Below, one piece after another: positions 22,901-28,900 of a DNA stretch of 64,000 nt (its first letter is position 1; every line of letters starts with the position of its first letter). The stretch is taken from contig OZ024862.1 in NCBI GenBank assembly GCA_964017155.1, positions 29,557,658 to 29,621,657 of the forward strand, given 5' to 3'. This DNA is from Oasisia sp. SBJ-2009. Taxonomy: Eukaryota; Annelida; Polychaeta; Sabellida; Siboglinidae. The position numbers were made by a program, and so were the translations under genes. Under the pieces are notes generated by a model. The model made no database searches. It was not told the DNA's origin and was given only the letters and a program-made list of their open reading frames with translations.

Positions 22901-25900
22901 CTTGATAATGGCTGCCACAATAGACACCCAAAATTATTCCATAAATATTCACAAATGAATTGGCGTACTGTAGACAGAAATTGTTGGTTTGGCTTTTTTA
23001 CGGAATAAATCTGATGTCTAAAAATAGATGAGGAATGATCTTTTGTTGCAGTTCTGGATACGTGTTCCGATGATTGCTCCTGAGGATAGTGTGGGAGATG
23101 TTTTTGAGGAGGAAGAGGAGGAGGAGGAGGAGGGAAAGACAGGGCTGAAACACGACACATGGCACTGGTGTGTAACAGGCTTACATCCTCCACATTGACT
23201 GATAAATCATGACTGATGGATCCAATATAATTATTATAGGCCAGACATTTGTCAGGTCATTTCCCCCCATTTTTGCTTTTTTAACACAGTAGAAAGGTTT
23301 CTGTGCATGTTTGTATAATTGTATATGTCGGTGAGCTTATTATTAAGTTGACATCACTGTGCCAAATCACATTTAAATTGATCAAATCTGAACCTGAGAA
23401 TGCACCAGCACAGCAATAAACATTGTAAAATATGTATTTTTAAATTGTTTTATTTAAATTTTTGGTAGTTGCGGACTAACACACTCTTCCATGAATAATG
23501 TTGGGGTAGTGGAAATTGATGAACGATATGTCAAGGATAAGAACAATTAATTGTACACTGGATAAACATGTCAGTGCAAAATCTGTACTCATCGGAACAG
23601 GGTCTCAGGTATCAGGTGTTTACCTCCAAACAGCCCAAACTTGGGCTAATGCAGTTGTTCTTCTCTAGAATTAGTGAGTCCACTACAGGTTACACATTTA
23701 CCCCCTGTGTGGGATCTTTTACTTCCCTTGGCATAGACACCAGATAGAAGGGACCACCGGCTTTTAGTGTCTCTTCCGAAAGACAAAGGCAATTGTAGGG
23801 TGGACGAAATTGCCTAAGTTTCGAAACGGTGGTAGGTGGGATCGAACCACCGTCCCCTCGATTGAGTCCGGTGCTCTACCGCGCGACCCCCGCTCCCCAC
23901 ACTCCCTACGGGTGAATATTAGGGAGGCCCCCCTCCACTGAGGCCCCCCTCCAGTGAGGCCCCGCTCCAGTGAGGCCCCGCTCCACTGAGGCCCTCCTCA
24001 ACTTCAACAGCACCTGCTTCAAGGCTTATAGGAAAGCTCCATTTACACGCCAGTTGACTTGTAAAAAATATTGTGGGACTAAGCACATCCCTCCAGCCCT
24101 CCCTCTAAAGTCCCTCCCCCAGTTCTGAAATGACCCTAGTGTATCCCATGACCACCCCCAATAACCCCCCTCTGTCCACTGACAGGTGGAACTCTCTGCG
24201 GCTCATGTGTGACTGCAACAAGAAGATCTCAATCGCTCTCGAGGTCACTGAGAATCTGCCGTCCAGTGAGGCGATTGACCGGTGGTGTGGGGAGCCGGTC
24301 AAGGCGGCCATCCTGCCGACCAGCATCTTCCTGACCAACAAGAAGGGTTACCCTGTCCTTTCCCGCGCCCACCAGCAGCTGGTGAAGCGACTGTTCAAGG
24401 TGAGTGTGTTTAGTGGCCACTTTGTTCTCTTCTGGTCAGCCACATAAAATGTTTGAACTCTGTATTATAAAATAATAATAATAAATAATACAATTTACTC
24501 AATTTACTAATACTAAAATGCTAATAATGATACTAACTGCATAATAATTATGTGATATAAATTGTATAACTTATTGGTAAATGCATGTAATTAAAGTCCA
24601 CATGAGACTTTCTCTTACTGTTTGTGAGCATACAACTCGGACAGTTTGCATGTTTTGACATTTTGCACGTGATCTAGCATGCCAGTTGGATGTTTCATGG
24701 ATTTAGAATTCGTCATTGGGCTGGTGTATTTAGGGGCTAAATATTTCACACGGGTATTCGTGGAGTTTCATCCACAGAATTTCATGTTTTTCTACATCAT
24801 CACAAAGAAAATTATGCCACCACAACTATGTCACTGGATGTAGAAATCTGCACACACCATTATATGTGACCTATTTCTGGAACACACTGAAACAAAGTAT
24901 CGTAATGTTCAAATGTATCTGTGCGGGTGATTGCCTGTTTGCATCACTGGGTAACTCGGCTAATTCAGATAAGGCAGCTAAATATGGTAGTTTTTTATTT
25001 TATAATTTTTGCAAATTTTCTACCCAGTGATAAACAGTAGGTAACTGGGAATAAAAAAATTATGGAACTTTTTCACTCGGACCCACGGTTGCCATGATAT
25101 CCAAACAAAATGGCCGCCATAATGTGAAAATATAGCAAACCTTAGCCGTGGTACCCAGTCATTACTCTAGTAGATATAATTATTTCACTGTCATATTTAG
25201 ACTACTTGGTATAACACAACTACAATGAGGTATTTTTAATTTTACAAAAATATATATTTGTTATATTTACCTTAAAAAACTCGGTTTATTTTTTGGCTTG
25301 TAAGTATGTTTATTATAAAATACTTATGCAACTTCAGCCATTTGTTACTAAAGGGCAGAGTAGATTTTATCCCAGCATTTAAAAACAAATAAAATAATAT
25401 AATCCGTCATGTTTTATGTACGTAAGCCAGTTGCATTATACAGGACATCTTGTGTCTTTGTACATTATTTACAACTTTATAATTGTAAATCATTTCCATT
25501 TTATCATCAGCTCGATGCCCAGATGATAATCGTTGGAAACTGTCGCCATGGAGACAAGGGGATGAGGAGCTACCAACAGTATCTGGACCACTTGTGGCAG
25601 GTGAGTACCACTCTCAGTATCTGGACCACTTGTGGCAGGTGAGTACCACTCTCAGTATCTGGACCACTTGTGGCAGGTGAGTACCACTCTCAGTATCTGG
25701 ACCACTTGTGGCAGGTGAGTACCACTCTCAGTATCTGGACCACTTGTGGCAGGTGAGGACCACTCTCAGTATCTGGACCACTTGTGGCAGGTGAGTACCA
25801 CTCTTGGTATCTGGACCACTTGTGGCAGGTGAGTACCACTCTCGGTATCTGGACCACTTGTGGCAGGTGAGTACCACTCTCAGTATCTGGACCATTTGTG

Positions 25901-28900
25901 GCAGGTGAGTACCACTCTCAGTATCTGGACCACTTGTGGCAGGTGAGTACCACTCTTGGTATCTGGACCACTTGTGGCAGGTGAGTACCACTCTCGGTAT
26001 CTGGACCACTTGTGACAGATGAGTACCACTCTCGGTATCTGGACCACTTGTGGCAGGTGAGTGCCACTCTCAGTATCTGGACCACTTGTGGCAGGTGAGT
26101 ACCACCCTCGGTATCTGGACCACTTGTAGCAGGTGAGTACCACCCTCGGTATCTGGACCACTTGTAGCAGGTGAGTACCACTCTCAGTATCTGGACCACT
26201 TGTGACAGGTGAGTACCACTCTCGGTATCTGGACCACTTGTAGCAGGTGAGTACCACTCTCAGTATCTGGACCACTTGTGGCAGGTGAGTACCGCTCTCG
26301 GTATCTGGACCACTTGTGACAGGTGAGTACCACTCTCGGTATCTGGACCACTTGTAGCAGGTGAGTACCACTCTCGGTATCTGGACCACTTGTGGCAGGT
26401 GAGTACCACCCTCAGTATCTGGACCACTTGTAGCAGGTGAGTACCACTCTCGGTATCTGGACCACTTGTGGCAGGTGAGTACCACCCTCAGTATCTGGAC
26501 CACTTGTGGCAGGTGAGTACCACTCTCAGTATCTGGACCACTTGTAGCAGGTGAGTACCACTCTCAGTATCTGGACCACTTGTAGCAGGTGAGTACCACC
26601 CTCGGTATCTGGACCACTTCTGACAGGTGAGTACCGCTCTCAGTATCTGGACCACTTGTGGCAGGTGAGTACAGTAGAACCTGTCTTGTAGGGACACCTG
26701 TCCAGCCAAGCAAGTGTCCCTACATTGCAGGTGTCCCCTCATTGGAGGGACAGGAATTTGCGGCATTTTTCCCCAAACATACAATCTTTATTTACATCCA
26801 CATTACAACATACATAAATCACTTTTATGCCCACAAGTATAATACCCATACAAATGAAGTTTAATAATATATCATTTAATATTACAGTTTTTTAAGACAG
26901 TTTTGGATTAATTCATAATAATTAATGTCGATAATAGCATGTATGCTTTTGAAAACAAACTAAGTATTAAAATGCACAAAATACAAATTAGAAAAGAATA
27001 AAATGAGACGACACATTAACAACATTTTCATTTATTTTGTGTGTATCATGTTTCAATATAAGGTTCATTTTGAATAGTTTTTACAATATAATAAATTATT
27101 ATTTTCTGATTGTTAATTCAAATTTGGGCTGAGGGGCTAAAAAGTGCTGCCACCTCACGGGGTCTTGGTAATCACGAAGCGGTCGCCATTTTGTTTATCG
27201 TTTCAGCGGCGCAAAATGATCATTTACTTTCTAATCTAACCATGAAAACGACTTCTTACAGCCGACAAACTTCTTGTCTGATAACTTATATACACATGCA
27301 CACGCTAGGTTACAAAATAAAATAATTTAAATTAATTTAAAGACTACAATTAACAATTCAAAATTGTGGTAACTCGACATCACCGGTGCCGGTAACGTGC
27401 AGGCCGTGGATTACCGTGGCGTAACGTCAATATTTTATTGCGGCGTCACTACATAAATGAGCTTAAGAAATTTTGGTTTTACCTAACTAACATGAAACTT
27501 AGCATAAACTCAGTAGGCCTATCTTACGTTTGTTATCGCTTGACATAACTAGAGACTTGGAGAAATATTAAATAAGTGTGGATAGATCGATTGCGTGGGC
27601 GGTTGTAAATTGAAATGGGTCACCAGCTGTGGGTTGAGATCCCGCACGCTTTCTCCGTTCCCAGCATCCTGACTTTCTTATTTGTCGTATATGTCTATCC
27701 AAGTATGCAGCTAACTGGGTTCAGTGTATCGACTGCAGATACTGTATAGTTTACCCATTACCCCAGCTGTGATTCAGCAGTCTTGTGCTAACAGAATTTG
27801 TATGCACTTAGTGTCTATCGAGAGTTTCTGTTGTCTCATCGTTGTTCTCTGGTTGTACATCTAGAATCAGGACCCTCCAGACAAAGTGATGCAGTTCGCC
27901 AAAGGATATGAAGACTACCTCCAGTGCCCTCTACAGGTGAGTCGTGGAACCATTAATTCGGCCATGTAACCATCTAGATGTGAAATGAGACATGGCCTAC
28001 TTCATCATCTAGCGCTTCTTTTTCTGTGGCCGATGGGTTAACACAGCTATCTTTATGCAAATATTGTAATAATAAATGAGTTGTGGATTAATGCTTGTGT
28101 TGTAATTTCATCAGAGTAATCAGACTGATCTTAATATCCCACTGATGCCCAGCCCAGTATGGTAAAAAAAAGGCGAAAAAAGGCAAGTTCTTATATAGCG
28201 CAGTATCCAGTGCTCAGGACCATTCAATAATAATAATAATAATAATAGTAACTTCTTTTGCGCCAATATCCTCGAAAATCAAGCTCAGTGGCGCGACAAA
28301 ACCAGGGGATTAATCAATCTCATAATCGAAAGCAATGCGTGAGTCGTCAACGGATGGATGGAAAAGCTAGGAGGCTAAGGAGGATAGGCAGCATTAAAGA
28401 GATAGGTTTTTAGATGTTGGCGGAATGAAACTATATTACCTTGTGATTTAACACTGGCAGGAAGCGAATTCCACACCGTTGGTGCGGCAACCGAGAAAGC
28501 TCGGGTCCCGGCTTTCGTTTTCACCCGAGGGATGTGAAGAGGGTTACTACTGGTTGAGCGTAGCTGTCTGGAATTTCTTGTTGGAGTTAGCATTGAATTT
28601 AGATATGCTGGTTGTGTAGATGAGAGTGCTTGATAGGCTATTGTACACATTTTGAAAATGATGCGATAGTGCACAGGTAGCCAATGCAGTGATTTTAGAA
28701 GCGGCACTGAGCGAGAAAAACGTGGAGAACGCGTGACTACCCTTGCTAAACAATTTTGGACACGCTGAAGTTTGGCTATGTCCTTGTTTGCGGTATTGTA
28801 AAGGAGGGAATTGCAGTAGTCGAGTCTGCTGCTTACTAGAGCTGTGGCGATGGTTTTAGCAACGGAAAGTGATAAAAACCGGCGGATACGGCGAAGATCA

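Follow-up and report, generated by a model that had tools for sequence, protein, structure and literature searches.

The DNA analysed here, called the window throughout, comprises 64,000 nucleotides of the Oasisia sp. SBJ-2009 assembly GCA_964017155.1 (contig OZ024862.1, positions 29,557,658 to 29,621,657 of the forward strand), and all coordinates below are counted from its first letter. It holds the genes of PRMT5 and of the mRNA cap guanine-N7 methyltransferase RNMT, and in each of them a minisatellite lies across the boundary between an exon and the intron that follows it (Table 1). This work demonstrates the tandem repeat, the gene to which it belongs, the exon 7 junction at which it sits and the coding consequences of its many splice donors for PRMT5, as well as a second donor array at another gene, RNMT. 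An interpretation is then proposed in which the PRMT5 array is probably a neutral minisatellite that splicing tolerates, of the boundary-spanning kind termed 'mirage'.

The donor array at PRMT5 exon 7

The PRMT5 exons were placed by means of relatives and splice signals; the boundary between exons 13 and 14 could shift by a few residues, without any effect on exon 7. In the PRMT5 search, the best match covering nearly the whole query came from Paralvinella (65%), Branchiostoma reached 58%, and the N-terminal part shows 88% identity to Lamellibrachia satsuma. The peptide produced by joining 25600 to 27865 matches solved PRMT5 structures across all 54 residues, gapless in the three alignments shown, and among the PRMT5 relatives listed (120 of 5117 matched) the same junction is gapless within 10 residues in 120 of 120. 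Because the listed relatives align gaplessly at this point, donor 1, the first of the array, is taken as the ancestral end of exon 7. The sequence-only reading of the window had assigned the site to the exon 7 donor of PRMT5, and this assignment is supported, as donor 1 would yield the ancestral protein in the comparison with all of these relatives.

Tandem Repeats Finder placed the array at 25577-26672, with a period of 38, 28.8 copies, 94% matches, 0% indels and a score of 1926. Each unit is composed of the 21 nt of the exon end and the 17 nt of the intron start, and 29 copies follow one another in register from 25580, the final one being partial and departing from the repeat after GTGAGTAC, at 26672. 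The unit of 21 plus 17 nt, the 29 copies and their constant length had all been proposed before and are confirmed by the program and by the listing of copies. Two small corrections apply to the earlier bounds: the array starts 21-24 nt within the exon, and the end proposed at 26677 overshoots the last matching base by 5 nt.

The 9-mer CAGGTGAGT (CAG/GTGAGT, the slash marking the splice site) is intact in 27 of the 29 copies, in agreement with the near-universal consensus claimed previously; the two deviant donors are those of copy 5 (CAGGTGAGG) and copy 12 (CAGATGAGT), and AGGT is kept in 28 of 29 units. All 26 occurrences of the 11-mer CAGGTGAGTAC in the window fall within this array; the mean number across 100 shuffles was 0.02. 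Donors 1 and 2 have the same sequence from -24 to +119. The first 28 units comprise 15 distinct sequences, all in exact 38-bp register, and the order of the copies contains block repeats such as MNMN, a common outcome of minisatellite turnover. A 25-base core of the unit was sought in the prokaryote genome collection without an exact hit, as expected, and the sequence directly 3′ of the array shows no further copy within the window.

The abundance of equal donors raises the question of a load on the splicing machinery, as 27 exact copies of the 9-mer at a single exon end and in a single intron could titrate U1 small nuclear ribonucleoprotein (snRNP), or could shield the intron from premature polyadenylation. 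However, U1 is very abundant and one intron of one gene constitutes a small load, and a role of this type is regarded as extremely improbable.

Translation of the different donor choices defined their coding outcome. Use of donor 2 adds 38 nt and shifts the frame, with a stop after residue 301; from donor 3 onward the in-frame TGA is encountered and ends the protein after residue 294. The frameshift and the TGA had both been predicted by the sequence-only reading. These outcomes were printed for donors 1-6, 12 and 29, and the remaining ones follow since the TGA is upstream of them. Every PRMT5 donor except the first thus results in a premature stop, with many exons still downstream.

Three further observations concern the same gene. 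The deposited PRMT5 model of Lamellibrachia satsuma (P0241) apparently loses its reading frame within exon 6 and terminates early in exon 7; it was considered as a gene model broken by an array and rejected, because the frame is apparently lost in exon 6, upstream of the array, and the model is therefore uninformative in this respect. Immediately 3′ of the array, beside a 17-bp repeat of 2.3 copies, lies an imperfect 22-nt inverted repeat (26679-26732), possibly a mobile-element remnant. Intron 8 contains an antisense open reading frame (ORF) of 354 aa (28375-29439, minus strand), a 150-aa piece of which matches the reverse transcriptase domain RVT_1 (E = 2.8e-17).

A second donor array in RNMT

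RNMT, the next gene to PRMT5 in the window, carries a donor array of its own, which had been overlooked in the earlier reading. The repeated unit joins the final 23 nt of exon 4 with 8 intron nt (GTACGTAG); the donor reads AAGGTACGT in 19 of the 24 copies and AAGGTACAT in three, the two at the 3′ end are degenerate, and AGGT is kept in 23 of 24 units. The context shared by donors 1 and 2 is shorter than in PRMT5, extending 19 nt to the 5′ side and 16 nt to the 3′ side. The peptide predicted from donor 1 joined to 42306, TADCTK/QRLRD, is found at this junction in two Ridgeia and two Lamellibrachia proteins. Additionally, unit position 4 sets copy 1 apart from all the rest, a pattern consistent with selection acting on the genuine exon end while the remaining copies turn over freely. 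Translation from donors 2-8, 23 and 24 stops after residue 233 in each case (rows were printed for donors 1-8, 23 and 24), and the other RNMT donors also lead to an early stop, because the stop sits in the first extension.

In the search, the RNMT query was 90% identical to Ridgeia piscesae, 82% to Lamellibrachia satsuma and 54% to Branchiostoma, and the full protein was 93% identical to Ridgeia piscesae and 73% to Lamellibrachia satsuma. Both of these tubeworm genera, Ridgeia and Lamellibrachia, belong to Siboglinidae, Annelida, and, judged by protein identity, the source of the gene is a vestimentiferan tubeworm nearer Ridgeia than Lamellibrachia, a description that would suit Riftia pachyptila. 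An amphioxus origin, considered on account of the mirages known there, was rejected in view of the lower Branchiostoma identities of both proteins.

The second array also bears on whether the copy number in this assembly is wrong or inflated. Arrays this long are difficult to assemble; against such an artefact stand the distinct unit sequences kept in exact register in PRMT5 and the presence of an array of different sequence at a second donor, and miscounted copies would not abolish the phenomenon. An assembly origin is accordingly given very little credence.

Coincidence of arrays and donors was evaluated by random placement. The window holds three arrays with a period of 20 bp or more and no fewer than 10 copies, and two of the three have a known donor in their end unit; two or more such arrays fell on donors with P = 0.0023 in 200000 placements, or 0.0037 with the two arrays restricted to the stretch that the two genes occupy, values that are optimistic, as one array was the given finding and the cut-offs were picked afterwards. 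A search for duplication at the junctions of the two genes (24 donors and 24 acceptors, without both splice sites of PRMT5 exon 10, which were likewise left out of the donor and acceptor matrices used below) found that 24 of 24 bases match at the two array donors, with a null fraction of 0.003 over 1000 random places. Apart from one marginal match, that of the RNMT exon 8 donor (null fraction 0.048; about two such matches are expected by chance), neither the remaining 22 donors nor any of the 24 acceptors carried a duplication of this kind.

Several other features were noted in the window. The third array, at 51027-51842 (43 bp, 19 copies, 97% matches), lies on no known junction. A 67-bp array of three copies at 58800-59001 contains in each minus-strand copy a donor-like site, GTAAGT in two and GTAAGC in one, which perhaps makes it another boundary array, though a minus-strand exon could not be demonstrated there. 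An 8-bp unit, ATACATAA, is repeated 95 times at 7728-8491 and overlaps a TGTA repeat beginning at 7370. On the minus strand, the ORF at 59670-59876 encodes a RING finger (zf-RING_5, E = 1.2e-10) and presumably resembles RNF212, and a 150-aa piece of the ORF at 3131-3616 weakly matches DUF6589, under the curated cut-off.

Table 1. Coordinates of the PRMT5 and RNMT features in the window
Feature	Position	Strand	Description	Basis
PRMT5 coding span	19959..35960	+	17 exons, 625-aa open model	relatives and splice signals
PRMT5 exon 7	25511..25600	+	90 nt, donor 1 after 25600	structure alignments, relatives
PRMT5 donor array	25580..26672	+	38-bp tandem array, 29 copies, across the exon 7 donor	Tandem Repeats Finder and copy listing
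PRMT5 donor 1	25598..25606	+	CAG/GTGAGT	9-mer inspection of copies
In-frame TGA	25640..25642	+	in frame with donor 3 or later	translation of donor choices
PRMT5 exon 8	27865..27936	+	acceptor before 27865	structure alignments, gene model
RNMT coding span	38650..46828	+	mRNA cap guanine-N7 methyltransferase, 10 exons, 489-aa open model	relatives, gene model
RNMT exon 4	41108..41232	+	donor 1 after 41232	relatives, gene model
RNMT donor array	41210..41948	+	31-bp unit, about 24 copies	Tandem Repeats Finder, copy listing

Proposed growth and tolerance of the arrays

The arrays resemble the 'mirages' of amphioxus, which are described as tandem repeats across exon-intron boundaries that are unstable in length and still allow normal mRNA to be made, as detected by reverse transcription PCR; the genes concerned are Adh3, with units of 10-72 bp, the globins BflGb6 and BflGb9, troponin C and PGBD5 (PMC3087553, PMC3902484). 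The PRMT5 and RNMT arrays match the structural features of mirages, in that their units span the exon-intron boundary (21 + 17 nt at 25600 in PRMT5, 23 + 8 nt in RNMT) and that many units keep the AG/GT splice signals. They differ in their host, an annelid, and in their copy numbers, 29 and about 24, in contrast with the 6 and 3 given for the two BflGb6 haplotypes (PMC3087553). Both arrays here lie at donors, whereas those of amphioxus include donors and acceptors; and splicing and length instability were assayed in amphioxus, whereas the structure described here is known from the sequence of one assembled haplotype. Among annelids, the earthworm metallothionein genes contain minisatellites within the first intron, with mean monomers of 178 and 181 bp, which are similar in being annelid and intronic, but the consulted part of that account describes no repetition of a splice donor (PMC12783039). 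Among the search results examined from the open-licence PubMed Central (PMC) literature, donor arrays were nowhere described for annelids; boundary-spanning arrays were found there only for amphioxus, and AGGT-containing exonic repeats in fission yeast. The boundary-spanning minisatellite is a kind already known from amphioxus, which the two arrays here extend to a new phylum and at a high copy number.

For PRMT5 we infer the mode of growth, the neutrality of the array and the donor in use, with the reason for its use, as follows. A short segment across the exon-intron junction would have been duplicated in tandem repeatedly, so that copy 1 would be the genuine exon end and the remaining 28 surplus intronic donors. 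The array would be tolerated since the duplicated unit holds an entire donor, leaving the real exon and its donor intact upstream. Because donors 1 and 2 are identical over the whole range given above, the choice between them cannot depend on nearby sequence, and donor 1 would most likely be selected by position, since it lies closest to the acceptor at the start of the 90-nt exon 7, in the manner of exon definition. Multiple U1 snRNPs reportedly occupy alternative donors and are later purged, a finding ascribed to Hodson et al. in 2012. Mis-spliced products would be cleared by nonsense-mediated decay, or be spliced again.

Some points weigh against this neutral interpretation. We infer the use of donor 1 from protein conservation; the mirage precedent is a chordate one, linked to the annelid arrays by likeness. 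The array donors (PRMT5 tied second, RNMT fourth) are also among the strongest of the 24 scored with a matrix built on the 22 donors outside the arrays, and the columns of the donor lean to fewer changes between copies than the others (17% vs 29%) in a neutrality test that is underpowered. A bias of growth or survival toward strong donors, or a role for them, may have contributed.

Alternatively, the array could act as a regulatory switch, in which downstream donors are used deliberately to produce unstable mRNA and to tune the PRMT5 dose. Such a switch would agree with the premature stop that follows from every donor but the first in both genes, although stops of this type are the ordinary result of such extensions. 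No significant sign of selection on the surplus donors was found, with low power: variation between copies affected 3 of 18 columns in the donor and 15 of 51 elsewhere (Fisher p = 0.36; 28 of 29 PRMT5 and 22 of 24 RNMT units entered the comparison, which omitted the incomplete final unit of PRMT5 and the two degenerate ones of RNMT). Additionally, RNA structure that might hide downstream donors, predicted for three stretches, did not exceed that of shuffled sequences (z 0.37, -0.44 and -0.07). A regulatory switch is thus considered very unlikely.

A further mechanism would add to the neutral interpretation rather than replace it. Because nearly every copy has AG right before the donor GT, the extensions begin with GT and end with AG in 28 of 28 cases in PRMT5 and in 22 of 23 in RNMT. 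The sequence-only reading had held that correct PRMT5 mRNA needs the most upstream donor, which is too strong, since all of the PRMT5 extensions could in form be removed by a second splice, and a wrong first choice of donor might possibly be repaired in this way. Several donors would be used first, and the GT...AG insert would then be excised from donor 1 to the AG that ends copy k, which would bring back the correct mRNA; the mRNA would likewise be unaffected by silent steps along the array. With a score of 4.1, the internal acceptor found most often in PRMT5, GTGGCAG/GTGA (17 of 28), ranks higher than 89% of 1336 background AG sites and falls inside the range of real acceptors (-0.8 to 11.9; 24 acceptors, leave-one-out), but the acceptor matrix is home-made and crude, resting on 24 sites. 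The remaining 11 PRMT5 acceptors score 1.3-2.2 in the rows printed, and in 7 copies a stronger rival AG lies 3 nt upstream (CTTGTAG/CAGG, 6.9), from which the exact junction is not restored. The RNMT counterpart is poor, at about -4.3 to -4.6 (29-32nd percentile), and the first PRMT5 extension, a 38-nt stretch, is probably too short to be spliced. Repair of this kind is therefore held to be rather unlikely, and the broader notion that such donor arrays are common in vestimentiferan genomes and act as self-correcting ladders appears similarly doubtful. If it were true, a gene might hold dozens of equal donors at no cost, and the initial choice among them would be masked by the two-step splicing.

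The same arrangement recalls the Rogers model of intron gain, in which duplication of AG/GT creates a stretch that begins with GT and ends with AG, as exemplified by ATP2A1 and by 24-bp repeats in fission yeast (PMC4974935). The GT...AG duplicated stretches of the two tubeworm genes are alike in this respect, but the array lies here at the donor of an intron that is already required for the reading frame.

Implications for splice-site choice

The choice among equal 5′ splice sites is usually studied on artificial constructs with few sites, and the window offers a natural case, with 27 equal donors in PRMT5 and 19 in the neighbouring RNMT. As the two first PRMT5 donors are identical in their surroundings, effects of position can be separated from those of local sequence. 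Such loci may mislead gene predictors and assemblers. The two arrays place boundary-spanning minisatellites in an annelid, remote from the cephalochordates in which they received their name, which suggests a general route of junction duplication and bears on the models of intron gain by tandem duplication.

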